IMG/VR virus record: IMGVR_UViG_3300030503_000375
Location: 1 to 32,695 of that record
Origin: a virus
Length of the DNA: 32,695 nt
Reading direction: 5' to 3' (one strand)
Shown one piece after another: positions 1,885 through 25,114 of the stretch. How positions within the stretch are numbered: the first letter of the stretch is position 1; each line of letters starts with the position of its first letter. The notes under the pieces were generated by a model that did not search any database, had not been told where the DNA came from, and saw only the letters and a program-made list of their open reading frames with translations. The translations under genes were made by a program, and so were the position numbers.

Positions 1885-1887
1885 ATC

Positions 1888-2568
1888 ATGACTCAATTTT
1901 GGACTGTATATCGAACCACCTGTTTAGTTAATACTCATTTTTACATTGGCAGGCACAAAACAACGAACGTGAACGACGGGTATCTTGGGTCGGGTACGGT
2001 ACTACGGAAAGCCGTAAAGAAGCATGGACGAGAAAAATTCATCAAAGAAGTGTTGTTTGTATTCGGCACCAAAGAAGCCGCCGATCTCAAGGAAATTGAA
2101 CTCGTGTACGAAGAACGAGACAACCCTAAATGCTACAATATCGCCAAAGGCGGTGAGGCTGGCTGGGACTACGTAAACGAAGCTGGTGTTGTATCACGAC
2201 ATTGGCGTGATAATCGAGAAAGTCGAAGAGAGGCCATACGTAGGGCGGTTCAAAAGAAGTGGAATGAGCCCGAACACCATGCGACCCACGCGGCGGCTAA
2301 CGGGAGCCCGAATGCCAAGGCAAAACAAAGCTTAAGTCACATTAAACAGTGGGAGAATCTAACTCCAGAAAAGCTAAAGGAGATCAAAGCGAATCGTTCG
2401 GAAATGTGGAAAGACCCGAAGAGAAAACAGGCCCAAGCGAACAAGGTCGCAAAAAGTTGGACTCCAGAACGTTTAGATGCCCAGAAACAAATAGCGATTC
2501 GAGTGAATCACACCCGCTGGCACCAAGCTAAAGGAATCGTAGATGTGGGTTGCGAGTTGTGTCACTAG
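1888..2568 (+). CDS. GIY-YIG homing endonuclease, Seg-like
   Basis: A 226-residue plus-strand gene. The N terminus (VYRTTCLVNTHFYIGRHKT) is a divergent GIY-YIG motif, followed by YLGSG, a KKHGREKF segment and E-rich EIELVYEE, as in phage T4 Seg-type endonucleases. The C-terminal half is a repeated basic helical region (KKWNEP, EMWKDPKRK, SWTPERLDAQK) typical of the DNA-binding modules of these enzymes. The ATG at 1888 has AGGACA upstream; the frame extends to 1843 but that start lacks a site. It lies divergently against the SbcD-like gene and ends one base before the stop of the gene at 2569, so it occupies exactly the gap between two minus-strand genes, as an inserted mobile gene would. Confidence 0.88.
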   Translation: MTQFWTVYRTTCLVNTHFYIGRHKTTNVNDGYLGSGTVLRKAVKKHGREKFIKEVLFVFGTKEAADLKEIELVYEERDNPKCYNIAKGGEAGWDYVNEAGVVSRHWRDNRESRREAIRRAVQKKWNEPEHHATHAAANGSPNAKAKQSLSHIKQWENLTPEKLKEIKANRSEMWKDPKRKQAQANKVAKSWTPERLDAQKQIAIRVNHTRWHQAKGIVDVGCELCH

Positions 2569-3781: not shown

Positions 3782-4196
3782 TACTCACTCCCCGTCCCCG
3801 TTGGAATTCTGCTACTCGCTGCAAATACTGGATGAATTCGGCATACCCCATCTTGCTCTTGGCATAATTGCAAATCGTGCAGCAAGGAAGACAATTCTGC
3901 GGGGTATACCCGAGATCGTTATCCCTTCGGTCTATACCGTTGCAGACCCACCCACCGTTGTATTTAGCTGTAGAGGAGTCAAGTTTCGTGTAGCTCCGTT
4001 CGACTGGCGGTGCACCGCAATAGTGACAGTTTTGCTGGCTCAACACCGTAAAATCTTCGGTTGACAACCCCCAGACTAGACCACGTTCCTTCGCTGCGTA
4101 CCTGTATTGACCTATGATTTTGTTCCGAGTAGCGATTCCCGGCCCACGAAACCTTCGATCAATCGCCACTCGTTTGTAAGTGCCTTTGCTACTCAC
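3741..4196 (-). CDS. HNH homing endonuclease
   Basis: A 151-residue protein with a complete HNH layout: CHYCG at 57-61, NGIDRRDND at 87-95, then QNCLPCCTICNYAKS at 100-114. The paired CxxC knuckles and IDR..N core match phage HNH nucleases. It starts with GTG in the sequence GTGAGTAG, overlapping the ATPase stop, and its C-terminal end overlaps the coiled-coil gene. The C-terminal tail (GTGTDTGT) is low in complexity and may be an insertion scar. The position between the ATPase and a coiled-coil gene suggests that it invaded this operon. Confidence 0.87.
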   Translation of the reverse strand: MSSKGTYKRVAIDRRFRGPGIATRNKIIGQYRYAAKERGLVWGLSTEDFTVLSQQNCHYCGAPPVERSYTKLDSSTAKYNGGWVCNGIDRRDNDLGYTPQNCLPCCTICNYAKSKMGYAEFIQYLQRVAEFQRGRGVSNGTGTDTGTIEAA

Positions 4197-5343
4197 ACGT
4201 ATGCTCGATAGCTCTGCCGCACTTCGGGCAAAGACTCTTTTTCAACTCGTCCTGCGCTTCAGTCAATTTTGAGTCAGTTTCAGTCAACTCGGCTGTCTTG
4301 GCCTTCAGGCTGCGACGAAGCTCAATCACCTGCCCTATGGTCTTAATACTGGAATAGAGTCGCACCGAAGAGGCGTACTGTGGCTCTACGGCGTCGATGT
4401 CGGGGAACACGCGGCGGTTGGCTTTCAGGACACGTAAGGTCTCGACAGCGACCAACTTCCGCCAGATCGGTAGGACGGGCACCCATGCCTCGGAGCCGCC
4501 GTCTATAACCGTGGTGACCTTACCAAGCCACTTCGACAGGATGCGGGATTCCGCCGCCTGATTGAGGTAGGCGATTTGTTGCGTCAATCGCTCAACTGGG
4601 GTCGTATTTGGCACCGCCAGAGCGTTCTGGAGCCGTTCTAGGGGCTTCAGACGGCTAAGGCGTGTCAGAGCCTCCCCAAGCCATACGGACTTGAAATCCA
4701 GCGCCCTAATGCGAAGCTCCAGTTCGTGGAGGGTGCTCAGGAGGCAGCCGCCATTGGCGCTCAGGGGCATGAGCTTGGACTTCCGTTCCTCAGCCTCACG
4801 AATCTCCGCAGCTAGGGTTTTGGCTTCACCGTTTTTGTCACTTATCCGTGACCCGGCCTCCTTCTTGCCAGCTTCCAATTTCTCCGTGCCGCCAAAGGCA
4901 CCGAGGATGGCATTCAGGTCGGCAGGCTTGTAGGCTTTCTTGTCGAGCAGGAATTGGGGGTCATTCTGTACCCCGAAGATGGGGTCAAAGTCGAAGTCCC
5001 CGACAGTGATCTCTCCGCAGAGCAGGTCTTTGACGGGCGGCGGGATGTGGCCGTCCAAGCTGGTGTAGGCGTTCTTCTCGTCGCCATTGAGGACGTACTT
5101 AACCTTCCCCGCCTTGTTGCGGGTTGCCTTGATCGTGATCCCGTTGATACTGAGGGTGAGTTCGAGGGGTTCCTTCTTAGGGTCACGGATAAAAGCGGCG
5201 TCGAGTTCGTTGCGAAGGATACCCCTGAGGGCACGGGACAGGCTGGACTTCCCCTTGTTGGAAGGGCCTGTCAGGACGGTAAGCCCGCCGATTTCTAGCT
5301 CGAAGTCCGCCCACGGTTGGAAGTTACGACCAGAAAGGCGCAA
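4189..5343 (-). CDS. SbcC-like ATPase with N-terminal lobe and zinc-hook CxxC
   Basis: A 384-residue ABC-type ATPase half. Walker A is GPSNKGKSS at 26-34; VQNDPQFLLD resembles a Q-loop; helical segments follow; and CPKCG with a further Cys closes the protein at 372-383. That is the order of an SbcC/Rad50 N-terminal lobe, first coil and zinc hook, but no ABC signature, Walker B or second lobe follows before the stop. The TTG at 5343 is chosen because AGGGAG lies nine bases upstream and the upstream frame (open to GTG 5442) overlaps a credible small gene. Role inferred: DNA-end processing with the SbcD-like nuclease. Half-length phage ATPases of this sort exist, so it need not be broken. Confidence 0.78.
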   Translation of the reverse strand: MRLSGRNFQPWADFELEIGGLTVLTGPSNKGKSSLSRALRGILRNELDAAFIRDPKKEPLELTLSINGITIKATRNKAGKVKYVLNGDEKNAYTSLDGHIPPPVKDLLCGEITVGDFDFDPIFGVQNDPQFLLDKKAYKPADLNAILGAFGGTEKLEAGKKEAGSRISDKNGEAKTLAAEIREAEERKSKLMPLSANGGCLLSTLHELELRIRALDFKSVWLGEALTRLSRLKPLERLQNALAVPNTTPVERLTQQIAYLNQAAESRILSKWLGKVTTVIDGGSEAWVPVLPIWRKLVAVETLRVLKANRRVFPDIDAVEPQYASSVRLYSSIKTIGQVIELRRSLKAKTAELTETDSKLTEAQDELKKSLCPKCGRAIEHTCE

Positions 5344-5345
5344 GG

Positions 5346-5516
5346 CTACTTTCTCCCTGACATTACCTCTGCCATCTTCAGCATATTGACGTGGTAGCGA
5401 CAGATGGGGATGCGGTTTTCGCCGTTTGGCCCTTCGCACCACCCCTCGGCAGGTTTACCACATGGTGGAACGCCTACGCCGCAAGGTTTGCCGATTACGG
5501 TCTCGATTGTGCTCAT
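5346..5516 (-). CDS. Small cysteine-rich protein, 56 aa
   Basis: A 56-residue protein read from ATG 5516 in the arrangement TAATG with the upstream stop, preceded by GAGGTAGAG. Cysteines at 12, 19, 27 and 39 with His42 (KPCGVGVPPCG, GWCEG, PICRYH) suggest a zinc-ribbon-like fold. It ends two bases before the chosen TTG of the ATPase, so the tight spacing supports both starts. Function unknown. Confidence 0.65.
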   Translation of the reverse strand: MSTIETVIGKPCGVGVPPCGKPAEGWCEGPNGENRIPICRYHVNMLKMAEVMSGRK

Positions 5517-7994: not shown

Positions 7995-8313
7995 TTTTGA
8001 TCTTCTCGTTGGGCAACATCTTCCCGTGAGCAGCACGGATGCAAGCCCAACTTCCTTCTTCGTCGTAGCAAATCGGACAATCGGGTGCTTGCTTTCCGAG
8101 AATCTTACGGATGGCGTCCAGACGTTCTTCGTCGAACTGAACATCTTTCCCCGGGCCGAGAGGCATGTTCCGCCACTCTATGTCTTGGACACGACTTTCA
8201 AGCTCCGCGAGCTTGGCGAGAGTGTGCACTTGGAACTGCTCGGGATAGTATCCCGTATTTCCGTTCACCGTCAGGTCGCCGCAGAATGGACAAGTTGTTG
8301 GGTCGTGCACCAT
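7987..8313 (-). CDS. Protein with two CxxC zinc-ribbon halves
   Basis: A 108-residue protein with CPFCG at 8-12 and CPIC at 79-82, separated by a helical stretch (LAKLAELESRVQDIEW). The two knuckles could bind one zinc. It starts at TAATG on the RecA stop with GAGGAC upstream, so it is translationally coupled to the recombinase. Function unknown. Confidence 0.7.
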   Translation of the reverse strand: MVHDPTTCPFCGDLTVNGNTGYYPEQFQVHTLAKLAELESRVQDIEWRNMPLGPGKDVQFDEERLDAIRKILGKQAPDCPICYDEEGSWACIRAAHGKMLPNEKIKNG

Positions 8314-9590
8314 TAGTCCTCCTCAACCTCAAACGCCGCACGTGCGGGCAGTTCCACACTGTCGTCGTCCAAGCCTGTCATGTAACGCTCGGTGTCCGCG
8401 TCAACTTCCATGAGATGGCGTCCCGTCTCATCGTTGCGGACGGCTTCCTTGACCAGCACCCGCAGCTTGGCGAGCACATCGGGGTTCTGGTCGATAACGA
8501 GGTCCTTGATAGCCGCTTCCTGATCGGGGTAGCCTGCAATGGCTTCCTCAGCCGATTTGCCGACGAACCACTTCTTGCCCACGTTGCTGATAAAGCCGTA
8601 GTCACGAGCAAGATCACGGACGGTAACGTTGTCGTCGAATCCGATGCCCTTACGCAGGTACATCGAACCCTCACGGTAACCGCCGCCGTTGGTCTTGTTC
8701 TTCAGGATGCGAACCTTGATACGAGTCGCGGCGAAGTCCTGTAAATCACCCTTGACGCCAGTGCCGGGTTCGAGCAGGAATGCATCTTCCTGTTCGCTGC
8801 CTGCACGGATGGCTTTGTGCGTCATCGTCTCAATCATCACACTGGGCGTGAAACGGCAGGTCTTGCCGCCCGGAAGGATGTAAGGCAGGTTGGTGAAAGA
8901 GGGATACTTGATGGCGTACTGGGCGTCCTTCGTGGATTCGATACGTGCGCGAGGCTGGTTGACCATCAGGAACACGCAATCGTAGCGGGCCGCAGGGGTC
9001 AACATGTTCTTGAAGAAGCATTCCATTGCACGGGCGTGTTCACCCGGCGTAGTCTTGTGGGACTTCTTGACATCCATGACGACCTTACGCTCAACTTCTT
9101 CGCGCATACGGACGATGGAGTCAAATACGAACAGGCGGACGCCGCCTTCCATGAATTCGAGGGTGCGCTTTTCCGCGTCCTGAATGCTGTCGGGCATGAT
9201 GAGTTCACAAGCAGCATCATCGACGCCGATCTTGTGGAGGTAGTTCCAGTCGCCAGTACGCTCAAAGTCGAAAATGACCGCAGGCTCACCAGTGAACTTC
9301 TGATACGCGCTGACGATGCCGTAGGTCAGGGTGGACTTGCCGCTGTGTTCATTTCCGTGGATTTCAATGACACGTCCACGTCGAGGCATACCATCCAAAC
9401 CGCACACGTCGTCGAGGGTGACGAAGCCATACGGAATACGCTCTTCCGCCACGTTGGGGTCAACGACTCGATAGTCCTTCTTGTTGCCCGCACGGGCCTT
9501 GGCAAACAGGGCGCAACGTTCCTTCGCGCTCAATGCCCGAACCGCCTGAAAATCAACGCCCTTTACTTCAGCTTTTGCTCTCTTTGGCAC
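8313..9590 (-). CDS. RecA/UvsX-like recombinase
   Basis: A 425-residue strand-exchange ATPase. Walker A GNEHSGKST at 79-87; VIFDFE, with the expected catalytic Glu near 110; Walker B VRLFVFDS at 151-158; and FLMVNQPRA at 207-215, where Q212 corresponds to the RecA sensor Gln. The N-terminal 45 residues are basic and helical, as in oligomerisation segments. The acidic C terminus (FEVEED) resembles RecA tails. It starts with GTG, with GGAGG four bases upstream. It follows the RuvC-like gene by 12 bases and drives pairing of ends made by the SbcC/D-type machinery. Confidence 0.92.
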   Translation of the reverse strand: MPKRAKAEVKGVDFQAVRALSAKERCALFAKARAGNKKDYRVVDPNVAEERIPYGFVTLDDVCGLDGMPRRGRVIEIHGNEHSGKSTLTYGIVSAYQKFTGEPAVIFDFERTGDWNYLHKIGVDDAACELIMPDSIQDAEKRTLEFMEGGVRLFVFDSIVRMREEVERKVVMDVKKSHKTTPGEHARAMECFFKNMLTPAARYDCVFLMVNQPRARIESTKDAQYAIKYPSFTNLPYILPGGKTCRFTPSVMIETMTHKAIRAGSEQEDAFLLEPGTGVKGDLQDFAATRIKVRILKNKTNGGGYREGSMYLRKGIGFDDNVTVRDLARDYGFISNVGKKWFVGKSAEEAIAGYPDQEAAIKDLVIDQNPDVLAKLRVLVKEAVRNDETGRHLMEVDADTERYMTGLDDDSVELPARAAFEVEED

Positions 9591-9601
9591 GTTTCCTCCG
9601 A

Positions 9602-10453
9602 TTACAGATAGAACTTCTCGCGGGACAGGGACTTCTTGGGGACTGCCGCGTTCTTAATGCAGGCGTCATACCCCTGCCGCTTGTACATATACCAATACTC
9701 ATTTCGGTGCAAAAGTCCCTTGGTTACGACGTGGGCGTTGCGCCCCTTGCCCTTGATCTCCTGTGTCGAATTGCACAGGGAGTTCAGGAAGTTCTGAGGG
9801 ACCTCAGAAGAGCACCCCATCACAATTGAGGCGGCGTGGCGAGCCATCATACTCAGGAGGACCGCATCGCAGGAGTCGGTATCCAACTCCGGGTAGTCTG
9901 CCTTGCCGATAAAGTCGTAGGCTCTGGTGATGTTCTCGGCCTTGTTCTTGGCACCCCTTGACGTAAGCCCCATGAGGGACCGCAACGTGGCGGCGTTCGT
10001 GTACATGATGCGAACCTGCCCGAACTGGACGAGGCTGTTGGTGGCCGTCCCATTCTCGAAGAACACCAGATGGATGATTCTGTTCAGAGCGACGAGATAG
10101 TCGTTCATCGGCGTTGGGAATTCCATGCTGATGATAAGCCCTGTGCGTTTCAAGATGTCGGGTGAATAGCTCCCGACCAGAGCCTCAGTGAGGCTCCGAA
10201 GGTAGATTGCCATCAGCTTTGCCCTAAGCCAAATCGTGTTACGCGGGTGCATCCCATTTTCGATGGTGTCCGACTTGACGGAGCCCGCCAGAATCCATTT
10301 AGCCACGGTCGCTGCGCTGGTATCGGTCGATGGGAAAACGTCCAGCATGGCGTACCCGGTGCGGCTCATGGACGGGTCTAGCCCGAGGATGACCCAGCGG
10401 TCAATCTCTTCGACCTTCGGCGGGATGATAAGAGGAACTTCTTTCTTTGGCAT
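9602..10453 (-). CDS. RuvC-like Holliday-junction resolvase
   Basis: RNase H-fold nuclease of 283 residues. ILGLDPSMSRTGYA places the first catalytic Asp at 26; IISMEFP gives Glu111; DTDSCDAVLL gives Asp193 and Asp196, the DxxD pair of RuvC. It is about 100 residues longer than bacterial RuvC, with an extra C-terminal basic domain (GKGRNAHVVTKG and after). The ATG follows directly on the TAA of the upstream gene, with CGGAG as ribosome site. It sits upstream of RecA in the same operon, fitting recombination intermediate resolution and DNA debranching. Confidence 0.87.
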   Translation of the reverse strand: MPKKEVPLIIPPKVEEIDRWVILGLDPSMSRTGYAMLDVFPSTDTSAATVAKWILAGSVKSDTIENGMHPRNTIWLRAKLMAIYLRSLTEALVGSYSPDILKRTGLIISMEFPTPMNDYLVALNRIIHLVFFENGTATNSLVQFGQVRIMYTNAATLRSLMGLTSRGAKNKAENITRAYDFIGKADYPELDTDSCDAVLLSMMARHAASIVMGCSSEVPQNFLNSLCNSTQEIKGKGRNAHVVTKGLLHRNEYWYMYKRQGYDACIKNAAVPKKSLSREKFYL

Positions 10454-10783
10454 TTAGGCTCCGAATCCGGTGCACGTGGGTTTGAGCAAAGGCTTGAATT
10501 TCTTGCAGTCGCAAGGCTTGGTCAGAGCGGGGCGCTCTTCCCGTTCCTTAGCGTCGTCAATCAGCTTCCTGATCTCTTCAATGCTCAGGTTGAGTGGAAT
10601 ATCCCCATTACATTTGCCGCGTAGCGTCTCACCAAAGAGATTGACTCCGAAAGGGTCCTTCATTCCAAAGGGGTCGTTAAACCCAAAAGGATCGAGGATA
10701 CTCAGCAAATCAGACACTTCTTCGTGAACGATTTCGGGGCAACCGCACTCACACAAGTTGAAATGTTCGCGGGACACGCACAT
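10454..10783 (-). CDS. Cys-motif protein with DPFG tandem repeats
   Basis: A 109-residue protein with CECGC plus a His (CGCPEIVHEE) near the start and CDCKKF near the end, a paired CxC pattern that could bind metal. Between them are three DPFG copies (LDPFGFN, DPFGMK, DPFGVN) in a row. It starts at ATG 10783 with TATTAA ending five bases upstream and no ribosome site, so it is probably leaderless. It heads the RuvC-RecA unit. Function unknown. Confidence 0.7.
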   Translation of the reverse strand: MCVSREHFNLCECGCPEIVHEEVSDLLSILDPFGFNDPFGMKDPFGVNLFGETLRGKCNGDIPLNLSIEEIRKLIDDAKEREERPALTKPCDCKKFKPLLKPTCTGFGA

Positions 10784-10798: not shown

Positions 10799-10832
10799 AA
10801 AAAAGAAAAAGGCAGAGCCCGAAGGCCCTGCC
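10797..10832 (-). terminator. Rho-independent terminator after the lipoprotein gene
   Basis: A nine-pair stem (10811-10819 with 10824-10832, one G-U pair in minus-strand RNA) carries a TTCG loop and is followed by a T-rich tract (TTTTTCTTTTTT) on the minus strand. A-rich sequence on the other side gives only a weak signal for plus transcripts. Confidence 0.85.
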
Positions 10833-10851
10833 TTTTCGTCACGGTAGAGAT

Positions 10852-12519
10852 TTACTGTTTGCTGCCGGGAGGGGCTTGCTGTGTTTCCCGTTGAATCTTA
10901 ACCACGGGCTTGTCCATGTCCATCGTATTCTTCTCGCGGCCCGCGCTGGCTTCGTAGTCATCCGCGTAGTCATCGTACTCGCCCGTGCGTTCCTTGGGTG
11001 GGCTGACTTTCTTCCGCTTGTCGAACTTGCCGTTGGCTGACGAGGATTCAATCCACCACCGCTGCGATCCCTCAGTGAAGGACTTGGCGTAGGGTGTATC
11101 CTCAATGAACTTATTCAAACCCGGGGTGACGATGCCGCTTACTTCCGAGCCATCCTCGAATTCAAACGTCAGCTTACGGGTGTTTGAGTAGTCATCGACC
11201 TTAGCCTCCGTCTTTTTGGCGAAATCGCCCTTTGGACGGTAGTATTCGATGACCTGACCAGCCGAGGCGTCGTAACGCTTACCAGCCTTGGTGTATTCCT
11301 TGGCAATGTACTCGATCTCGCGGTACATGCTGTGGGCGTGATCGCCGTCAGGGTAGGTGGAGCCGTCTGCTGGCATCTGCACCTTCTTGAACTTGATGCG
11401 GACGTTGAAGTTCTCCCCGGTCGTGGTGACGTACTTGTAGGGGACAATCCAGCCATCTGCGTCGGGCGACTTCTCCCACGGGTCAATCGGCTTATCCGTG
11501 CGGGAAATCTCGATCTTGAACAGGTTTTGCGGCGGCAGTTGGCGTAAATCCTTCTTCTTGTCGGCGAAGAGGGTAGCCAGCAGGTTGCCGTTGCGGACCA
11601 CATCCTGAACGTTCGTGATGTCGGAGACCGATTCAAGGATGTCAGGCAATCCGAATCCAGCATCTCGGCCTTCACGGTCAGTGTCGATCAAAACCACGGC
11701 ACCGTAACCATCGGTCGGGAAGAAAATCTTAAGAGCAGGCTTGGACTCTTGCTTGCCGTCAATGACGCGGTAACCCTCGATGTAGTTGCCCTTGTTGTTC
11801 TCGGGCGTCTCTTCGGTGATGATCTTGTAGTTCGTCAGCCGAATGCTCATCTTCTTAGCCTTCCAGATGAAGGCTTCGCTATCATCAGGGTGAGCAGGGT
11901 CAGCGACCTTGTGATCGTAGGGACTGGAGAAGTCCAGTTCAGCCGTTTCGATCTCTTTCAGGGAGCCGTCTTTCTTAGCACCCTCAACCTCGTCCGACGT
12001 GAAGGGGAAAGCCACGCTCAGGTCCTTGGACGTGAAAATCTTGCGGATGTTGTACCCACCGCTCATCTCGGCGTCTCGTCCGTACTCTTCCTTGTCGCCC
12101 ATCTTCTGTTGGAACTCGTTGTAGAGGTAGGCGGTATGCACGCGAGCCTTCTGAGCCTCGGTGATCTCTTCCTCGTGCTCCATGTCCTTGCGGAGATTGA
12201 AGGTATCGAGGTACTGCCGCATATCCGTGTTGTTCGGATCGAGCGAATCGTTCAGGTCTTTCAGCACGGTGTCAATCTGGCTGTCAACCTTGGAAGTTGG
12301 CACCTTGCCGTAGATCACGACGTACTGGCCTGAGCCTTCCTTGACCTCGCGTCCCCACCCGATTTTGTCGTAGTAGGCAAACGCGGCGAGGACCTGCTTC
12401 TTTGTCCAGTGCTTGTCTTTGCCAGCGTCCTCAAACGTCTGACGGTAGGGCGGCACGCAGCCCGCTAAGAACATCGTGGCGACAATCGCGAGAGTTGCTA
12501 GAACGGTACGGAACTTCAT
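10852..12519 (-). CDS. Large lipoprotein of unknown function
   Basis: A 555-residue secreted lipoprotein. Residues 1-20 form a signal peptide (KFRTVLATLAIVATMF) ending in the lipobox LAGC with Cys21 as the lipidated residue. The mature part has no recognised domain: charged, mixed alpha/beta, with a Lys/Glu-rich end and QQAPPGSKQ tail. It starts at ATGA overlapping the stop of the secreted HExxH gene, so the two are coupled and probably act together in the envelope. The +2 residue (Val) gives no inner-membrane retention signal, which is compatible with outer-membrane sorting. A terminator follows directly. Confidence 0.82.
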   Translation of the reverse strand: MKFRTVLATLAIVATMFLAGCVPPYRQTFEDAGKDKHWTKKQVLAAFAYYDKIGWGREVKEGSGQYVVIYGKVPTSKVDSQIDTVLKDLNDSLDPNNTDMRQYLDTFNLRKDMEHEEEITEAQKARVHTAYLYNEFQQKMGDKEEYGRDAEMSGGYNIRKIFTSKDLSVAFPFTSDEVEGAKKDGSLKEIETAELDFSSPYDHKVADPAHPDDSEAFIWKAKKMSIRLTNYKIITEETPENNKGNYIEGYRVIDGKQESKPALKIFFPTDGYGAVVLIDTDREGRDAGFGLPDILESVSDITNVQDVVRNGNLLATLFADKKKDLRQLPPQNLFKIEISRTDKPIDPWEKSPDADGWIVPYKYVTTTGENFNVRIKFKKVQMPADGSTYPDGDHAHSMYREIEYIAKEYTKAGKRYDASAGQVIEYYRPKGDFAKKTEAKVDDYSNTRKLTFEFEDGSEVSGIVTPGLNKFIEDTPYAKSFTEGSQRWWIESSSANGKFDKRKKVSPPKERTGEYDDYADDYEASAGREKNTMDMDKPVVKIQRETQQAPPGSKQ

Positions 12520-13991
12520 TTCACCACCGCCTTGAAATCGGACTTGAACGTGCTGAGGAACTGTAGAGCCTCTACCGGAGACATCTTCTGGAGTTCGGAC
12601 AGCTTTTCCGGGTGCTCACGGAAGTATGTCTCGATGTTTTCCTGCTCACGAGCCGTGAACATGCGGTTGTACTGATCGAGGAGGGACGGAGGGACGCGGG
12701 TAATCATATCCATGCCGCCGCCCTGATTACCGCCGAGACCCTTCTTGAAAGCTTGGTCGCCGATCTCTTTGATCTCTTCACTGTGCGAGTTCAGCCAGTC
12801 CATCGTCTTAGCGGCCCCGCCGAGAAGAGTCGGGTTGTAGTGCAGTGCCATCGTCATGCGGAACACGCTGTTGTTGTCGCCGCGAATGTCGTTGACCGCT
12901 GACCACCAAACAGGATCGGAGTAGAACTCGGGAATGGTTTCGTCCATGAAGAACTTCAACATTTCCGCTTTCATCGTGTCGATCTGTTTGTAGTAGTACA
13001 GGTAGTTGGCGTCGTCGTAGACGATGTTGCCAGCGAAGTCGAACTTCACCGTGTCCGAACGGAATTGATCCCAATCGAAGCCGTAGTAAATCGCGGCCAA
13101 TTCACGAATGTCGGTTGCATAGCCGTGGGTCGGGTAGTCCGTTGTGTTCTCGGAGTACAGGACGATGGGCATGTCCGCCATCAACTCCACGTCGAACGCT
13201 TCGCTCATGGGGAACTTCTCGAAGTTGATGTTACCGTGCACCATCTCGTGCTGCATGATCTTGGGGACGGTGTTGACGTAATCGGTCATCCAAGCATTCG
13301 GATTGTAGTAGATGACGCCCGTATTGAGCCACGTGACGCCAAGGATGCCGCCGAGGGGCGGGTTGTAGCCAAGGTGCAGTTCGCGGGGTACAAAGTCCGA
13401 CGCCTTGGAAGGCTTCGGCAGGCGGTGCAGTTCGCGGAAGGTGATGTTGTAGCCCGGAACTTTCTCGTCAAGCTGCGCCAGCAACTCTTCACGCTTGATG
13501 CCCAGCTTCGCGGCACGAGCCGTAACTGCTTTCTCAGCGACCACCGCATAAAAGTCATTGTCGCGCTTGGCGGCGATGACCGCGATCTGGGTCAGAGTGT
13601 CTTCGACGACCTTCAACTGATCTTCGGTGATGTAGTATTGGTCACAGAGAGAAGTGTAACGGATGCGACCATCGGGCATACGGTATGCGTGGTCGATCAC
13701 GATCTTCATCTTCGCCGGGTTCTCGGTGACGCTGGACGTGCTCACAACGTCGGTGACAACCGCGATGCTGTCGCTGCCGGGAATGGTTGTGCCCAGCAGG
13801 CCCCCTTGGTTACAAAGCGCCGTCGCCTGAAAGATGTGCATGTACTCTTCGCGTTGGCGAAGAAGATCGGTTGTTTGTTGGATGCCTTTTGGGAAGAAAA
13901 ACGGCTGAGCGGTGGGCATGTTCTGGCTAAACGCGGCGGTCGCCAGTAGGAGCAGAGATGCGATGGTCGTGCAAATCTTGCGAAACTTCAT
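12516..13991 (-). CDS. Secreted HExxH metalloprotease-like protein
   Basis: A 491-residue protein. A signal peptide (1-22, basic KFRK start, core SLLLLATAAF) is cleaved after AFS. HEMVH at 248-252 is an HExxH zinc motif, with acidic residues in SEAFDVELMADMP (Glu264, Glu269) at the distance where gluzincins have the third ligand. The rest is helical with an ending region (LSELQKMSPVEALQFLSTFK). The start ATG 13991 has GGGGGAT upstream and gives the signal peptide; the frame is open to 14057. No named peptidase family recognised. It is followed by the lipoprotein with ATGA overlap. Its promoter region has a CRP-like palindrome. Confidence 0.78.
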   Translation of the reverse strand: MKFRKICTTIASLLLLATAAFSQNMPTAQPFFFPKGIQQTTDLLRQREEYMHIFQATALCNQGGLLGTTIPGSDSIAVVTDVVSTSSVTENPAKMKIVIDHAYRMPDGRIRYTSLCDQYYITEDQLKVVEDTLTQIAVIAAKRDNDFYAVVAEKAVTARAAKLGIKREELLAQLDEKVPGYNITFRELHRLPKPSKASDFVPRELHLGYNPPLGGILGVTWLNTGVIYYNPNAWMTDYVNTVPKIMQHEMVHGNINFEKFPMSEAFDVELMADMPIVLYSENTTDYPTHGYATDIRELAAIYYGFDWDQFRSDTVKFDFAGNIVYDDANYLYYYKQIDTMKAEMLKFFMDETIPEFYSDPVWWSAVNDIRGDNNSVFRMTMALHYNPTLLGGAAKTMDWLNSHSEEIKEIGDQAFKKGLGGNQGGGMDMITRVPPSLLDQYNRMFTAREQENIETYFREHPEKLSELQKMSPVEALQFLSTFKSDFKAVVK

Positions 13992-14005
13992 TGATCCCCC
14001 GAAAC

Positions 14006-14021
14006 TGTGACTTGCGTCACA
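14006..14021. promoter_or_regulatory. CRP/FNR-type palindrome or 5' UTR hairpin
   Basis: The plus strand reads TGTGACTTGCGTCACA, a perfect TGTGA-N6-TCACA site like the CRP consensus. In RNA the same bases form a stem with a GCAA loop, six pairs long, right at the expected transcript start and 15 bases above the ATG. Both readings are possible. Confidence 0.5.
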
Positions 14022-14025
14022 TATT

Positions 14026-14043
14026 ACTACAATACTCAGGTTC
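14026..14043 (-). promoter_or_regulatory. Promoter-like motif before the secreted protein gene
   Basis: The minus strand reads GAACCTGAGTATTGTAGT, a variant of the CAGTATTGATA family. It lies between a hairpin above and the palindrome below. Confidence 0.5.
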
Positions 14044-14052
14044 TTGGAAGTT

Positions 14053-14080
14053 GGCAAACAAAATCGTTAGCGATTTTGCC
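14053..14080 (-). terminator. Hairpin after the DnaQ-like gene
   Basis: On the minus strand, CAAAATCG and CGATTTTG pair perfectly around CTAA, with GGC and GCC extending the stem past a short bulge. It lies six bases after the exonuclease stop and ends the upstream transcript before the next promoter. There is no long T-tract, so it may be only partly effective. Confidence 0.55.
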
Positions 14081-14085
14081 ACTAT

Positions 14086-14808
14086 TTATTTGATTACTTC
14101 AATCGAAAAACCAGCAGCCGTGCACTCCTCCCGCTCCTGCTCGACGAAAAGCTCTTTCATTTCTCTGAACCACATCACGAACTTGCCGTCTTTGTACTCA
14201 GCGTGATAGCCCCGTTTCTTCGCCAGTTCGTTGTTGTGGAAGCTCACCAGAGCCTTGACTATTACCATCGGGCTCCGAGCCAGTTCCAGCACCTTATCCA
14301 GCGGGTACTGATCGAGCATCTGCATCATGCTGACCGCATCGAATGCTGCACGATGAGGAAATGGGTTGGGCAGCATCCCATGATCCACGGGCATGTAAGC
14401 GAGTTTACGGGTGTACCATCGGGGCAAGGGAAGATCGGTTAGAGTGTCGATCCAGAGCTTTCCGGGGTCAGAATCAAAGTTATAGCGGTCAGCCCACGCC
14501 TGCGAGAAGCCCTTGTCGAACTTGATGCCATTGTGAGCACAAACAGTCTCAGCGGATTGATACCACAGGAAAAATTGCTTGGCAGCTTTAAGGTCGTCGA
14601 TGCCGTACTTCGCGGCCAACTCGGGCATCTTGGGAAATCTTTCGATGATCTCGGGCTCCCACGGAGCATCCCCCGGGTTGACCAGATAGCCCATGATTTT
14701 GACGGGTTCGCGCAGGTCGGTGTCCCACTGAGTCATTCCCACTTCGGTGATGCGGTGGATCGCTGGGTCCCCGCCAGTGGTTTCGAAATCGAAGCCCAGA
14801 ATCAGCAT
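14086..14808 (-). CDS. DnaQ-like DEDDh 3'-5' exonuclease
   Basis: A 240-residue exonuclease. Motif ExoI GFDFETTG has Asp7 and Glu9; ExoII AHNGIKFD supplies Asp98; ExoIII HRAAFDA supplies His152 and Asp157 (H-x4-D), giving the DEDDh type. Length and stand-alone form match phage exonucleases and the polymerase III epsilon subunit. It may proofread or trim 3' ends; no polymerase is in this window. It starts at TAATG on the MazG-like stop. Confidence 0.9.
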   Translation of the reverse strand: MLILGFDFETTGGDPAIHRITEVGMTQWDTDLREPVKIMGYLVNPGDAPWEPEIIERFPKMPELAAKYGIDDLKAAKQFFLWYQSAETVCAHNGIKFDKGFSQAWADRYNFDSDPGKLWIDTLTDLPLPRWYTRKLAYMPVDHGMLPNPFPHRAAFDAVSMMQMLDQYPLDKVLELARSPMVIVKALVSFHNNELAKKRGYHAEYKDGKFVMWFREMKELFVEQEREECTAAGFSIEVIK

Positions 14809-15194
14809 TACAGCGTGTCCAGTGCCAGACCGAGCGACTTCTTCAGTGCTGTCTTTGCTTTGTACTGTTCATCGGACTTAGCCCGATTCTTTGCCATCTT
14901 CTTGTCGAGAGCCGCCAGCGGATCAATGCCACGCTCAAAGGCGTAAGCATAGACGTTCAACATGCAGTCGGCGACTTCGCCTTCGTCCGATTCTGGGGGT
15001 TGTCCCTCGGCAAGACGGCGGGCGGACTGAACGTAAGAAAGATTGATGGCTGTATTGATTTGGTCTGGGGTGAGTTCTGCTGCAAGTGCTAGTTCAACGG
15101 CTTCTTCTACAACGGCTAACGCACGGCCTTTGGCTCCCGACCATTCGGGGAAAACCCGCCTTACCCACGTACCAACTGTCTCTGGAGTTTCCAT
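14808..15194 (-). CDS. MazG-like nucleotide pyrophosphohydrolase
   Basis: A 128-residue all-helical protein. EEAVE at 30-34 and EVAD at 73-76 form the EExxE and ExxD metal site of the MazG/all-alpha NTP pyrophosphohydrolase fold; KMAKNRAKS near 103-111 supplies the conserved Lys/Asn-Arg. It probably hydrolyses (d)NTPs or a related nucleotide such as ppGpp, as proposed for phage MazG proteins. It has its own leaderless-type promoter, and its stop overlaps the exonuclease start. Confidence 0.85.
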   Translation of the reverse strand: METPETVGTWVRRVFPEWSGAKGRALAVVEEAVELALAAELTPDQINTAINLSYVQSARRLAEGQPPESDEGEVADCMLNVYAYAFERGIDPLAALDKKMAKNRAKSDEQYKAKTALKKSLGLALDTL

Positions 15195-15200
15195 GAGCCC

Positions 15201-15209
15201 ATTGTATCA
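15201..15209 (-). promoter_or_regulatory. Extended -10 promoter, leaderless MazG-like gene
   Basis: The minus strand reads TGATACAAT, ending six bases before ATG 15194, with no ribosome site between. Confidence 0.65.
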
Positions 15210-15221
15210 CAAACCTCTAAT

Positions 15222-15241
15222 GGGGGCGGTTGCCCGCCCCC
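15222..15241 (-). terminator. GC-rich hairpin after the SSB-like gene
   Basis: A perfect eight-pair stem (GGGGGCGG with CCGCCCCC) closes a GCAA loop on the minus strand. It lacks a T-tract, so its function as a terminator is uncertain; it may protect the 3' end of the SSB-like message. Confidence 0.5.
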
Positions 15242-15265
15242 GAACCTTGGAGGGAAGGATGCGGT

Positions 15266-16252
15266 TTAGAGGTCCTCTACGTCGTCGAGGCGAGCTTCTT
15301 CGGCACCAGCCGCCACACCCGACAGTAGGGCTTTCCACTCTTGGAGAGTCAACTTCTTGCCGAGACGCCCCTTGAGAATCTTGCCATCTTCTTTGGTGAA
15401 CTTATCAGCGGCCTGTTTGACTTCTTCGACCAACTGAGGGTTCTGCTTCCAACGAGCCTTTTGGGAGATGCGCTGGAACTGATAGCCGAAAGCACGATCT
15501 GGATCATGCTTCATCACGATGTCGATATCGTACACGCTGACGTTCGGGTTGTCTTCAACCATCTCGTCAATCAAGTGCGACACCGCACGGTAGTTGGAGC
15601 GGGTCAAGTCAACGTACTGAACTTCCCACTCGATGACCGCGCCCTTGTCGTAGCCGCCCGTCTTGGAGTCCGCGTTGGTGTAGCGGATAACGAGGGCTGC
15701 CACGTGCAACTCGCCGTCTTCGCCCAGCTTGGCGCAGCAATAGCCTGCGTCGGGGGAGTTGGCGGGAGTCAAGCAACGTGCCGTCAGTTTCTTGCCCGGA
15801 AGTTCGACGAAGTGATTCTTCGCGCTCTTCGGCTTGATGAATGGGAGCAATGCGAAACGCACGGCCTTGCCCTTTTCAGAGGGGCGGCAACGGTTCAGCA
15901 TGTTCGGACGTGTGGCGAGCTTGTCGTCGCCGAATTCTACGTCCAAATCGTCTTCGTCGCCTGCGGCGGCGGGAGCAGCGCCCTTGGTGCCCTTAGCGGC
16001 GTGTGCTGCGGCTGCCTTCGGGGTTGGTTCGTCGAGTTCGTCTTCGGCGACCTGCTTTGTTTTCGCGGGGGCTGTTGCGGCAGCAGCTTGCGGTTGTGCT
16101 GCGGGTGTAGCCTGCGCTACGGGTGCGGATACGGCGGCTTCGGCATCAGCGAGTGCCTTAGCTGCGGCTGCGGCAGCGGCACGGGCCTTTGCAACAGCGT
16201 CGGATACAACGGGCTTTACATCTGCGAGTTCGTCTTCGTTGAATTGGTTCAC
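15266..16252 (-). CDS. Probable single-stranded DNA-binding protein with Ala-rich leader domain
   Basis: A 328-residue protein in three parts: residues 1-105 are Ala/Pro/Gln-rich and disordered-looking, 115-310 form a globular basic/aromatic domain (VRFALLPFIKPKSAKNHFVE), and the C terminus is acidic (EEARLDDVEDL). A globular DNA-binding-type core with an acidic tail resembles phage SSBs (gp32-like), which recruit partners through the tail. The match is by architecture and context, not by a motif. The start is GTG with AGAGGAA upstream. It follows HU and is followed by MazG-like and DnaQ-like genes. Other structural roles are possible. Confidence 0.5.
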   Translation of the reverse strand: MNQFNEDELADVKPVVSDAVAKARAAAAAAAKALADAEAAVSAPVAQATPAAQPQAAAATAPAKTKQVAEDELDEPTPKAAAAHAAKGTKGAAPAAAGDEDDLDVEFGDDKLATRPNMLNRCRPSEKGKAVRFALLPFIKPKSAKNHFVELPGKKLTARCLTPANSPDAGYCCAKLGEDGELHVAALVIRYTNADSKTGGYDKGAVIEWEVQYVDLTRSNYRAVSHLIDEMVEDNPNVSVYDIDIVMKHDPDRAFGYQFQRISQKARWKQNPQLVEEVKQAADKFTKEDGKILKGRLGKKLTLQEWKALLSGVAAGAEEARLDDVEDL

Positions 16253-16289
16253 TTGTTCCTCTTTCAGGTCGGTTTTTATTTTTTGTTCT

Positions 16290-16607
16290 TTACTTTACGA
16301 CTTCCTGCTTACGCAGGTCCCCGAGCGTGATGAACTTGACTTTGCGCTTGGCATTCGTCATTTTGATCTCGCCCGTAAAGGGTATCTTTCGTCTAATACC
16401 CGATTTGTGGCGAATGGAAAACTTACCGAAAGAATTTAGTTTCAGTTGGAATCCATTCACTGCAAGGTTGTTCAACAAGGTGTGCTCTAACTCAGAGATC
16501 ACCACGGTGATAATGTTTTCGGCTTCTTTTTTGGTCGAGAGATTCAACGCCTGTTGAACCCGTACCGTTAATTCGTCGCGGCCAGCTTTCGATTTGCCTG
16601 TGGACAT
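16290..16607 (-). CDS. HU/IHF-family DNA-bending protein
   Basis: A 105-residue histone-like protein. Residues 8-45 are the helical dimer region (LTVRVQQALNLSTKKEAENI); GKFSIRHKSGIRRKIPFTGE is the HU beta-arm segment, with FTGE where HU has PTGE; IKMTNAKRKVKFITLGDLRK matches the HU tail. It bends and coats DNA and can organise the phage chromosome. The gene has a promoter-like motif, and its start codon sits in an eight-base inverted repeat. Confidence 0.9.
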   Translation of the reverse strand: MSTGKSKAGRDELTVRVQQALNLSTKKEAENIITVVISELEHTLLNNLAVNGFQLKLNSFGKFSIRHKSGIRRKIPFTGEIKMTNAKRKVKFITLGDLRKQEVVK

Positions 16608-16630
16608 GTGTGATATTCCCCTACATGTCC
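16602..16630. promoter_or_regulatory. Inverted repeat covering the HU ribosome site and start codon
   Basis: Arms GGACATGT and ACATGTCC are perfect over eight bases with a 13-base gap. The HU ATG lies in the downstream arm and AGGGG, the ribosome site, lies in the gap. As RNA it would hide the start codon; as DNA it is a dyad just below the promoter motif, so an operator is also possible. Confidence 0.55.
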
Positions 16631-16644
16631 TAATACTAAGTTTT
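16631..16644 (-). promoter_or_regulatory. Promoter-like motif before HU
   Basis: The minus strand reads AAAACTTAGTATTA, the CAGTATTGATA family with a variant end, just upstream of the inverted repeat. Confidence 0.5.
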
Positions 16645-16654
16645 GAGGGTTTTA

Positions 16655-16690
16655 TTGGGAAAAAAGAAAAGCCGCCCAGAACGGGCGGCT
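16655..16690 (-). terminator. Rho-independent terminator after the barrel-like gene
   Basis: The stem AGCCGCCC with GGGCGGCT (16670-16677 and 16683-16690) around a five-base loop is followed by TTTCTTTTTTCCC on the minus strand. It lies 28 bases after the stop codon. Confidence 0.88.
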
Positions 16691-16718
16691 CTCTGACTTA
16701 CGGGAATCGAGCGATTCC

Positions 16719-17366
16719 TTAGAACACAACCTTGATACCAGCCGAGCCTTGTGCTCCGCTGATACGCTGACTCAGACTCACGCCGCTGGCTGTCAACTGA
16801 TTGATTGACGAGTTGCCAGAGACATCCTGAGTCAAGCGAATGCCGCCCTTTTTCGTCACGTAGAACTCGTTGTGAAGAAGAACGGTACGCTGGTTGGTTG
16901 CTGAACGACCCGGAAGTTCGTACAGGGCCGTAACGCGATCACGGCTGAACTGGAACCCGCCGCCGACCAGAGGAACAAACGTGGTCGCCGAAGTCGGGAT
17001 CAATCCCTTGAAGTTGCCGTTAATGACCTGATCGGTGTACAACGCCCCGCCGCCAAGCAACAGCTTGCCGACCTTCGCGTAACCCGTGCCAGTGACGGTG
17101 CCAGCGAAAGCTGAGGTATTGTAGTTCTGGAAGTTGCGGACGTTCTGGGTGTTGAACTGTCCATTGACATCGATCAACAGGAGCTTGGAGTTGATTTCAA
17201 CGCCAGCACCGAGGTTGAAGGAAGGGTTGGAAGCCGTCACGCTCGACGTGCCCGTGAAGGTTGACTGATAGCCGACGCCAGCGTCAACGTATGGCTTAAC
17301 CTGAGAGAATGCGGACCCGACGAACAGAGCCAGTACCGCAAGGATTGATAGCAAAGTAGTCTTCAT
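16719..17366 (-). CDS. Outer-membrane beta-barrel-like protein
   Basis: A 215-residue protein. Signal peptide 1-19 (KTTLLSILAVLALFVGSAFS) with Gln after the cut. The mature part alternates hydrophobic and polar residues and is Gly/Ser/Thr/Asn-rich with repeated strands (YVDAGVGYQSTF, NLGAGVEINS, VGKLLLGGGALYT, FVPLVGGGFQFS), and ends GIKVVF: a C-terminal Phe is the typical barrel-insertion signal of outer-membrane proteins. About eight strands are expected at this length. ATG 17366 is chosen for the signal peptide; GAGGAG lies 12 bases upstream. It has its own promoter-like motif and terminator. Possible roles include receptor masking; none proven. Confidence 0.72.
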   Translation of the reverse strand: MKTTLLSILAVLALFVGSAFSQVKPYVDAGVGYQSTFTGTSSVTASNPSFNLGAGVEINSKLLLIDVNGQFNTQNVRNFQNYNTSAFAGTVTGTGYAKVGKLLLGGGALYTDQVINGNFKGLIPTSATTFVPLVGGGFQFSRDRVTALYELPGRSATNQRTVLLHNEFYVTKKGGIRLTQDVSGNSSINQLTASGVSLSQRISGAQGSAGIKVVF

Positions 17367-22623: not shown

Positions 22624-24345
22624 TTAAAAGCTGGATGCGAAATCTGGTGCTTCCAGCCCGATGATTGAGTCCGTCCACCACTTCGACAACTGGATGCTCG
22701 TCGAAGTCGTGCACTGGTTCTTGTTGTAGAAATCGCGGAACCCTTCGTCCAGAATGTAGGTGTGAGCCTTGTCCGTCATGCTGCGGACCACGCGGCCCGT
22801 TGCCTGCTCAAGAACCAGAGCCGTCAGCCATTGATACCACGCGGGGTCGCGGTCCATGCGAGCCTTAACGTAGGGGTCCATGAACGGGTACGGCACCTTC
22901 GTGACGACGCAGAAGCGAGCCAAGTCTTCCTTCAAATCCAAGCCTTCGGTCATCGACGGGGAGAACAGAACTGTCGGCTCGGGGCTGGCAATGTGCTCCA
23001 TCACAGCGCGGTCACGCGAACCCTTCGAGTTGTCGTGGGTGATGATGCGGTATCCGAATTCAGCTTTCAGGTACTCCACGAAGTAGCGGTTGTTCTCGTA
23101 GCTATGCGTGTGGATGATACCCTTCTTGGTCGCGTACTTGCGGAGAATCTGCGCCATAAAAGCAGCCATCTTCGGCATGGTGTTCTTCTTGAAACGGAAG
23201 CCCATATTGCCGCACGGCTTGAAGAAGATCGGGCGATTCTCAAGGGGAAATTCGCTGTCCACCGCGAGGCAGGTCGCGTCCTTAGGGTTGATGCCCAAAT
23301 TACGCATGAACGTCGGGAAGTCCAAAATCGTCGCCGACATCAACAGAACTTTGTCCGCCTTGCTGAACAGGATGTCGTTGGCGAACAGGGTAGCGGTCAG
23401 CGGCTTGATGGCGAGATCGGTCGTGCCCTTGCGCTTTTCCGCGTCCCAATCGCTCCATGCCAGCCAGTCGCGGCGATCAGCGGCGTTCAGGAAGAAATTG
23501 ATCTTGCCCATGAACCGCTCAGCCGCCTGAACCTTCTTGAGCAACTTCACGGCGAGTTCCTTGTCGCCAGTCTCTTTGGCAACGGTGATCTGGGTCTTGA
23601 GGTTGCGCTTGTGGCTCTCGTAGGCGGGAACGAACGAGCCGCACAGCCAGTTCGCCACGTCCTCGTTGTAACCAGCTTCGAAAATTGGCAAGCCGCCGAC
23701 CACACCGTACTCCTCGCAACGGCGCTTGTCGATGACGGTATCCGTGAAGCCCAGAATCTTGCCCTCGGCGTTGTGTGCTTCGTCGCACACCAGCAGGTTG
23801 CGATTCTTCAACTGACCAGCGTGCATCGTCTCGTTGAGGTAGTAGTCGAAATTCGTGACGCCCATCGGGGTCGATTGGAAGATGCGCTTGGCAGGCTTGT
23901 AACCAGTGCAGGTCTCGACGTTGTGCTCTTCTTCGTAAAGCATCGCGGCGGTCTCGCAGTCGATTTCCATGCCAGCCTGCTCAGTGAAGCCGTGGCAGGT
24001 GTAGTTCGACTGACCCTTGAGTTCCACAAGGCCGTTCGGGGCGAAGTCATCGACGTACTGCTTGGTGAGAACTTTCTGCGGGGAGAGGATGTAGCCGCCC
24101 TTCTCGTAAACTTCGCCGACTGCGGAGTTCAGAGTCTTTGCCCAAGAGCAAGCGGCGATGCCGACGCCTGACTTACCGAAACCAGTCGGACCTTCGAGCA
24201 CGTAGAACTTTTTGTTCTGTTCGCGGAAGGCGTCCTGCACGCCAAGCATGGCTTGGGTCTGGGTTGCGCGTTGAGTGGGGAAGGGGAAGTGAGCCGCGAT
24301 GTCGGTCGAAAACTCGTGATTCAGATTTTTATCTACGGTTGGCAT
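22624..24345 (-). CDS. DinG/Rad3-like superfamily 2 helicase
   Basis: A 573-residue helicase. Walker A GPTGFGKS at 52-59; DEAH at 188-191 in LLVCDEAHNAEG; VLLMSATILD as motif III; PSMTEGLDL and QATGRVVRS as motifs V and VI of the DinG/Rad3/XPD group. Three Cys at about 117, 130 and 146 (TCHG, DCETA, ETCTGYKP) lie where XPD/DinG proteins have the iron-sulphur cluster, although four are normally present. It unwinds 5'-3', possibly at D-loops or RNA-DNA hybrids. The gene has the second copy of the 71-base promoter module. Confidence 0.85.
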   Translation of the reverse strand: MPTVDKNLNHEFSTDIAAHFPFPTQRATQTQAMLGVQDAFREQNKKFYVLEGPTGFGKSGVGIAACSWAKTLNSAVGEVYEKGGYILSPQKVLTKQYVDDFAPNGLVELKGQSNYTCHGFTEQAGMEIDCETAAMLYEEEHNVETCTGYKPAKRIFQSTPMGVTNFDYYLNETMHAGQLKNRNLLVCDEAHNAEGKILGFTDTVIDKRRCEEYGVVGGLPIFEAGYNEDVANWLCGSFVPAYESHKRNLKTQITVAKETGDKELAVKLLKKVQAAERFMGKINFFLNAADRRDWLAWSDWDAEKRKGTTDLAIKPLTATLFANDILFSKADKVLLMSATILDFPTFMRNLGINPKDATCLAVDSEFPLENRPIFFKPCGNMGFRFKKNTMPKMAAFMAQILRKYATKKGIIHTHSYENNRYFVEYLKAEFGYRIITHDNSKGSRDRAVMEHIASPEPTVLFSPSMTEGLDLKEDLARFCVVTKVPYPFMDPYVKARMDRDPAWYQWLTALVLEQATGRVVRSMTDKAHTYILDEGFRDFYNKNQCTTSTSIQLSKWWTDSIIGLEAPDFASSF

Positions 24346-25099: not shown

Positions 25100-25114
25100 A
25101 TAATACCGCGATTA
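25100..25114 (-). promoter_or_regulatory. TAATCGCGGTATTAT promoter, copy 3
   Basis: The minus strand reads TAATCGCGGTATTAT; the TAA is the fibre gene stop. TATTAT ends five bases before ATG 25094. Confidence 0.68.

Follow-up and report, generated by a model that had tools for sequence, protein, structure and literature searches.

An exported putative zinc peptidase and its lipoprotein partner shared by jumbo phages and Patescibacteria

Phages are known to change host surfaces with small proteins, including the superinfection-exclusion proteins Llp and Cor of T5. Superinfection-exclusion lipoproteins are small single proteins that lack an enzyme partner, and morons have classically been described for temperate phages. 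Among the gluzincin zinc peptidases, the M1 family has the spacing HExxH-x18-E. Ltp of Streptococcus phage TP-J34 is also a phage superinfection-exclusion lipoprotein (PMC3952083). Here, we analyzed a 32,695-nt (32.7-kb) fragment of the IMG/VR virus record IMGVR_UViG_3300030503_000375 (positions 1 to 32,695; hereafter, the window), whose main genes lie on the minus strand. The window encodes an exported putative zinc peptidase with an HExxH motif and an obligate large lipoprotein partner (hereafter, the pair), a combination that is apparently undescribed. An initial annotation, made from the sequence of the window, had combined these two genes with a third encoding an outer-membrane barrel, and all three exported-protein open reading frames (ORFs) were present on the minus strand as it had listed them (Table 1).

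The HExxH protein begins with a signal peptide, a comparable N-terminus starts most of its homologs, and the motif itself is HEMVH at residues 248–252, in agreement with the initial annotation. Across 26 peptidase homologs, with identities to the window protein down to 19%, P192, F200, H248, E249, H252, E269, and Y291 did not vary, and D267, A272, and H289 showed one exception each. At the level of the motif set, HExxH-x16-E with a later H-x-Y corresponds to the residue arrangement of gluzincin zinc peptidases, in which E269 would serve as a zinc ligand. By our own estimate, HExxH alone would arise by chance in approximately 1% of proteins of this length; we regard the motif as more than chance because HExxH, E269, and Y291 were invariant (26/26), the lipobox Cys of the partner was likewise invariant (25/25), and the ratios of nonsynonymous to synonymous substitution rates (dN/dS) were 0.07–0.20 for both genes, which corresponds to purifying selection. 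The AlphaFold2 (AF2) model of the HExxH protein had a predicted local distance difference test (pLDDT) score of 76.8, and its best viral match was a 474-residue protein (E 6e-16) of the same length as the homolog of Thermus phage YS40_Isch. A second look using VIA-align returned mostly gluzincins (M1, M4, M13, and others), which supports, without proving, a zincin fold. Neurotoxin light chains were present in the weak structural rows merely as other zincins, and we claim no kinship with them. A VWA_CoxE match (E 0.02) was rejected as spurious, as it fell on the upstream extension of an over-long TTG ORF.

The partner protein carries a proper lipobox, as initially annotated: in all 25 lipoprotein partners, Cys21 lay behind a hydrophobic stretch, the arrangement of signal peptide and invariant Cys that characterizes bacterial lipoproteins; lipidation and membrane anchoring are predicted. 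Signal peptides were assessed by eye and by conservation. D279 and D281 (D279-x-D281) and P292 were also invariant in this family, and the D-x-D-x-x-G-like stretch might bind calcium. The C-terminus of the YS40_Isch lipoprotein (L011, 8918–10255) has near it DSDGDGTFDKRKEV, which resembles a calcium-binding loop, and the lipoprotein of the window has a matching but degraded ANGKFDKRKKV there. A Foldseek search of the lipoprotein model against PDB gave no confident match, and OspA/LolA-like structural rows were not used (Z below 6, poor model).

The two genes form one real module. The ATGA coupling proposed initially is exact (12519–12516), and the same 4-nt overlap was shared by the 11 jumbo-phage copies without exception and by 7 of the 13 copies from Patescibacteria. 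The lipoprotein adjoined every HExxH homolog whose downstream flank was inspected, in jumbo-phage contigs from soil, YS40_Isch, and Patescibacteria alike. Searching 384 genomes of the Harrisonbacteria class for the peptidase yielded 10 clear cases besides the centre genome (an eleventh match, at E 9e-4, was at chance level, and one genome had a second, short partial match), and a separate search for the lipoprotein retrieved the same 10 genomes and no others. The family distances of the two proteins were correlated in a mirror-tree comparison of the Patescibacteria alone (r 0.84, Mantel p 0.0005).

The pair is not phage-specific but is also a chromosomal gene pair in some Patescibacteria. The copies there are chromosomal because they lie beside ruvB/RNase J/ruvC/dnaN/dnaA (L013 and L014), rpoBC and ftsK (L060–L062), and groEL (L055 and L056), with neighbours named by eye except where scanned. 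The ruvB, ruvC, dnaN, dnaA, rpoBC, groEL, or ftsK neighbours exclude contamination of the genome bins by phage contigs. The pair is rare in this group, occurring in 10–11 of 384 genomes of the class, 4 of 244 of the order, and 1 of 380 in a phylum-wide draw, in which the centre genome alone carried it. A tight-motif scan of 84,980 species genomes, which distant homologs in other phyla could escape, retrieved no more than four loci, of which three bear the label Harrisonbacteria and the fourth Paceibacter. A conserved gene (SILATLAYYDILDFPLT..) was observed just upstream of the pair at L053 7701–8687, L055 4977–5978, and L056 8637–9716. The next gene was trypsin-like in 3 of 10 Patescibacteria loci (L053, L060, and L062, the last below the cut-off), a trypsin-like gene lay two genes from the pair in L056, and the second gene downstream in L061 encoded an S41/PDZ peptidase. 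Given 1–6 trypsin genes per genome, four within two genes of the pair in ten loci corresponded to p ~7e-6 (binomial), a value that treats the loci as independent, which they are not fully.

On sequence grounds, the window is jumbo-phage DNA, because its neighbouring genes share multi-gene synteny with IMG/VR contigs of 455,708 and 463,033 bases that have weak yet consistent terminase matches; this bears out the phage origin assumed initially. Domain and PHROG matches placed the pair inside a replication/recombination block. Using the RuvC-like gene as an anchor, we recovered 12 jumbo contigs, in 8 of which the pair separated the DnaQ-type gene from the RuvC-like one. The slot was empty in L049 and the near-identical L050 (DnaQ and RuvC-like genes 18 nt apart in both) and in L051 (94 nt), and in L044 it was filled by a lone gene (9030–9761) whose secreted product has a trypsin-like domain (PF13365, E 9e-8). 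The available sequence of the records behind L044, L049, and L051 held no copy of the pair elsewhere. In L021, the pair was present and was followed just downstream by a trypsin-like lipoprotein (PF13365, E 2e-10; 11675–12433). These two were the only PF13365 genes in ten phage contigs (~2.3 Mb), and both lay at the pair site; one of the two has a lipobox-like LSAC. In L006, the pair occupied an unrelated gene context. The pair of YS40_Isch (AZU97695.1 and AZU97696.1, the latter with a lipobox and aligning with the lipoprotein over its length) was alone inserted after the dNMP kinase gene, at the point where YS40, which has no pair, carries a tRNA-Thr approximately 70 nt downstream. Neither gene was detected in any other of 50,697 phage records at the sensitivity used, scanning viral sequences with the proteins of YS40_Isch and Harrisonbacteria added nothing, and a plasmid search gave no match.

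These insertions between genes that are adjacent in relatives (L049, L050, and L051; YS40 compared with YS40_Isch) were accompanied by a predicted sigma70-like promoter, TTGCCA-N17-TATTGT in the window and L001, with TATTAT in L009 and TTTACA-N17-TATTGT in L008, and by a terminator-like hairpin after the lipoprotein gene, both at the consensus level. The pair is moron-like because it has a conserved promoter-like sequence and a predicted terminator of its own, and it is an accessory unit gained or lost together at defined sites.

Regarding origin, the peptidase tree placed the jumbo-phage clade (100/99) within a clade holding the Harrisonbacteria-type copies (99/99), and placed the YS40_Isch copy apart, on a long branch with a different Patescibacteria group (98/94). 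The lipoprotein tree agreed on the jumbo phages and left the position of YS40_Isch unsure. Because the phage label changes at least two times in the peptidase tree, the sequences are most simply explained by at least two transfers from Patescibacteria-like donors to phages; a third source outside the sampled genomes is possible.

Because unrelated secreted proteases recur beside or instead of the pair, the slot seems to provide extracytoplasmic proteolysis and not one particular fold, and these neighbours and replacements are the best functional hint available. We consider it somewhat probable that the pair is an exported gluzincin-type zinc peptidase with a dedicated lipoprotein partner, of Patescibacteria-like origin, and that it cuts proteins in the envelope of the infected cell. 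Both proteins would be exported by Sec, and the lipoprotein would be displayed on the periplasmic or the outer side of the host membrane, assuming a diderm host and given that its +2 residue is not Asp. There, it may bind the peptidase as an anchor, folding helper, or regulator, and the peptidase would cut envelope or surface proteins. The most likely benefit would be that the surface or periplasm is remodelled as infection proceeds, for example by receptor removal that keeps competing phages out; the phages would have acquired this capacity at least twice from Patescibacteria-like donors. Surface remodelling or superinfection exclusion is favoured over nutrient supply and toxin-immunity, and fits the data.

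Several points weigh against this interpretation. Foldseek found no significant match of the HExxH model in PDB (none below E 0.5), the best VIA-align row was weak (Z 5.2, rmsd 5.4 Å over 177 residues), and, the structural matches being weak, the zinc-peptidase identity leans mainly on the motif set. The AF2 model of the lipoprotein was poor (pLDDT 63.7), and the putative activity, localisation, and partner interaction derive from sequences and models. A general ‘secreted enzyme’ locus could account for the protease neighbours, the proposed donor direction could change with sampling and with the placement of the tree root, and which envelope is targeted would depend on the hosts of the jumbo phages.

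A broader version, which we advance only tentatively, is that the pair is a two-component envelope-proteolysis system native to Patescibacteria, used on neighbours or on their own surface, and captured at least twice by jumbo and Thermus phages as a weapon or shield at the infected-cell surface, with a secreted serine protease able to take its place in the genomic slot. An auxiliary role in nutrition is unlikely: the peptidase would digest outside or periplasmic proteins as a source of amino acids while a long infection lasts or for the growth of scavenging-dependent Patescibacteria, as the proximity of the Patescibacteria homologs to secreted trypsin-like, S41, S8, and S9 peptidases and a GH5 enzyme, and the trypsin-like protease in place of the pair in one phage, would suggest; however, a soluble secreted enzyme would suffice for this purpose, the strictly conserved large lipoprotein would be left unexplained, and the rarity of the pair in Patescibacteria also argues against it. 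We give still less credence to a toxin-immunity pair, in which the exported peptidase would be directed at neighbouring cells, with the lipoprotein shielding the producer. Patescibacteria live attached to other bacteria, and the strict pairing, the coupled translation geometry, and the export signals on both proteins would suit such a system, but the lipoprotein is conserved as much as the enzyme, domain scans revealed no delivery domain, and known immunity lipoproteins are smaller than this one.

Some HExxH proteins are not peptidases, and no sequence match to any peptidase family was found; the protein could accordingly be another zinc hydrolase, with peptidoglycan or glycans as its substrate, for instance, or a binding protein that lacks catalytic activity. 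We consider this very unlikely, given that E269 and Y291 are invariant at gluzincin-like places, that peptidases dominate the structural second look, and that proteases adjoin or replace the protein. A particle-bound protease or spanin-like disruption of the outer membrane is hardly credible, even though the overlap between a lipoprotein gene and another gene for an exported protein is reminiscent of spanin pairs, since the pair lies among replication genes, is accessory in phages, has no PHROG match, and occurs in cellular chromosomes beside rpoBC, dnaN, or ruvC; for the same reasons of location, the role in release (lysis) suggested initially is unlikely.

The barrel was ruled out as a third component by its own distribution. 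The export signals of the pair and of the barrel ORF were all found, so this part of the proposed envelope cluster stands; the barrel is nevertheless a separate gene, with ordinary phage genes (those for a DnaQ-type exonuclease, a MazG-like protein, HU, and a 328-aa protein) in between, and it was present in L051, which has no pair, whereas in some other phages no barrel gene was detected in the vicinity of the pair. It starts with MKTTLLSILAVLALFVGSAFS followed by Q at 17366 and ends in ...VVF. Hairpins with T tails follow the lipoprotein and barrel genes, in line with the two terminators noted initially. The barrel was 57–81% identical to its close relatives; its identity to L001 4679–5338 was 57%, although the neighbouring UvsX and 328-aa proteins were 98% identical in that phage. 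Its dN/dS of 0.37 ranked second among 13 genes, the top value (0.49) belonging to a nearly unchanged SbcC-like gene. A diversifying surface protein, or recombination, is possible. Elsewhere, the window is mosaic at 9602–10783, where the RuvC-like gene shares 93% identity with L009 and 59% with L001, against 95–98% with both for the flanking UvsX. The gene at 25112–28429 (minus strand) encodes a product of 1105 aa that has an ice-binding-like domain (PF11999, E 1e-29) and is probably another exported phage protein. No Rfam elements were found in the window.

Table 1. Features of the pair and its surroundings in the window.
Feature	Position	Strand	Remarks
Calcineurin-like phosphoesterase	862–1896		Replication/recombination block
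SbcC-like AAA protein	4189–5442		Replication/recombination block
UvsX/RecA	8313–9590		Replication/recombination block
RuvC-like gene	9602–10453	-	Downstream border of insertion site
Terminator-like hairpin after lipoprotein gene	10806–10837	-	14 pairs, T tail
Partner lipoprotein, 555 aa	10852–12519	-	Lipobox Cys21 invariant (25/25)
Lipoprotein signal peptide and lipobox, ..FLAGC (MKFRTVLATLAIVATMFLAGC)	12457–12519	-	+2 residue V, not D
ATGA stop/start overlap of the two genes	12516–12519	-	Exact
Exported HExxH protein, 491 aa, gluzincin-like putative zinc peptidase	12516–13991	-	Signal peptide, invariant motif residues, AF2 model
H289-x-Y291, candidate transition-state residues	13119–13127	-	Y291 26/26, H289 25/26
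E269, candidate third zinc ligand	13185–13187	-	In D-x-E-x-x-A, 16 residues past HExxH; invariant (26/26)
HEMVH, predicted zinc-binding motif (residues 248–252)	13236–13250	-	Invariant (26/26)
Signal peptide of HExxH protein, MKFRKICTTIASLLLLATAAFS then Q	13926–13991	-	Start at 13991; by eye
Predicted sigma70-like promoter, TTGCCA-N17-TATTGT	14029–14057	-	Upstream of pair; conserved spacing
DnaQ-type exonuclease	14086–14808	-	Upstream border of insertion site
MazG-like	14808–15194		Replication/recombination block
HU	16290–16607		Replication/recombination block
Terminator-like hairpin after barrel gene	16667–16693	-	12 pairs, T tail
Putative outer-membrane barrel, 215 aa	16719–17366	-	Neighbour, outside module; weak OmpW/OMP_b-brl scores
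Helicase	22624–24345		Replication/recombination block

Comparisons of the pair with Pfam, PHROGs, NCBIfam, PADLOC, and PDB sequences gave chance-level matches only, including, for anti-phage defence in PADLOC, a single HNH match (E 0.02). Sequence and structure searches retrieved no close match to a known virion protein, and with no described family matching either, the initial proposal of an undescribed system holds for the pair. At 491 and 555 aa and situated among replication genes, the two proteins differ from the spanin pair Rz/Rz1, in which a small protein of the inner membrane and a small lipoprotein of the outer membrane are encoded in the lysis cassette, and no lysis genes were found among the examined neighbours. 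We found no published description of the pair in the open-licence literature. As far as could be found in sequence libraries and this literature, the two families, the way in which they are obligately paired, and their presence in both Patescibacteria and phages of other hosts are apparently undescribed, while the gluzincin-like fold and the moron-like arrangement are of already known kinds. The shared pair connects the little-understood Patescibacteria with jumbo phages of other hosts via gene exchange. Its role is directly testable in YS40_Isch, for which a culturable host is on record (Thermus thermophilus HB8) and whose close relative YS40 lacks the pair.

The homologs in a named phage, the hypothetical proteins AZU97695.1 and AZU97696.1 of YS40_Isch, have the same order, a short overlap, and the same motifs, but are only ~19–26% identical to the pair of the window and occupy another site (dNMP kinase/tRNA-Thr). 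The gluzincins (clan MA(E): M1 aminopeptidase N, M4 ProA, and M13 PepO) resemble the HExxH protein in HExxH, a downstream invariant Glu, and Tyr, and account for most of the VIA-align rows (Z up to 5.2, rmsd 5–6 Å), whereas the HExxH protein has no detectable sequence similarity to them, has its own N- and C-terminal regions and an obligate lipoprotein partner, and differs from M1 in its HExxH-x16-E spacing. Superinfection-exclusion lipoproteins are alike in being phage-encoded host-surface lipoproteins from accessory genes, but the lipoprotein here is 555 aa long and is coupled to a putative peptidase. Similarly to phage morons, the pair represents extra genes, with a predicted promoter and terminator of their own, placed between phage genes that would otherwise be neighbours; it differs from classical morons in residing in jumbo phages and in being a Patescibacteria-type pair.

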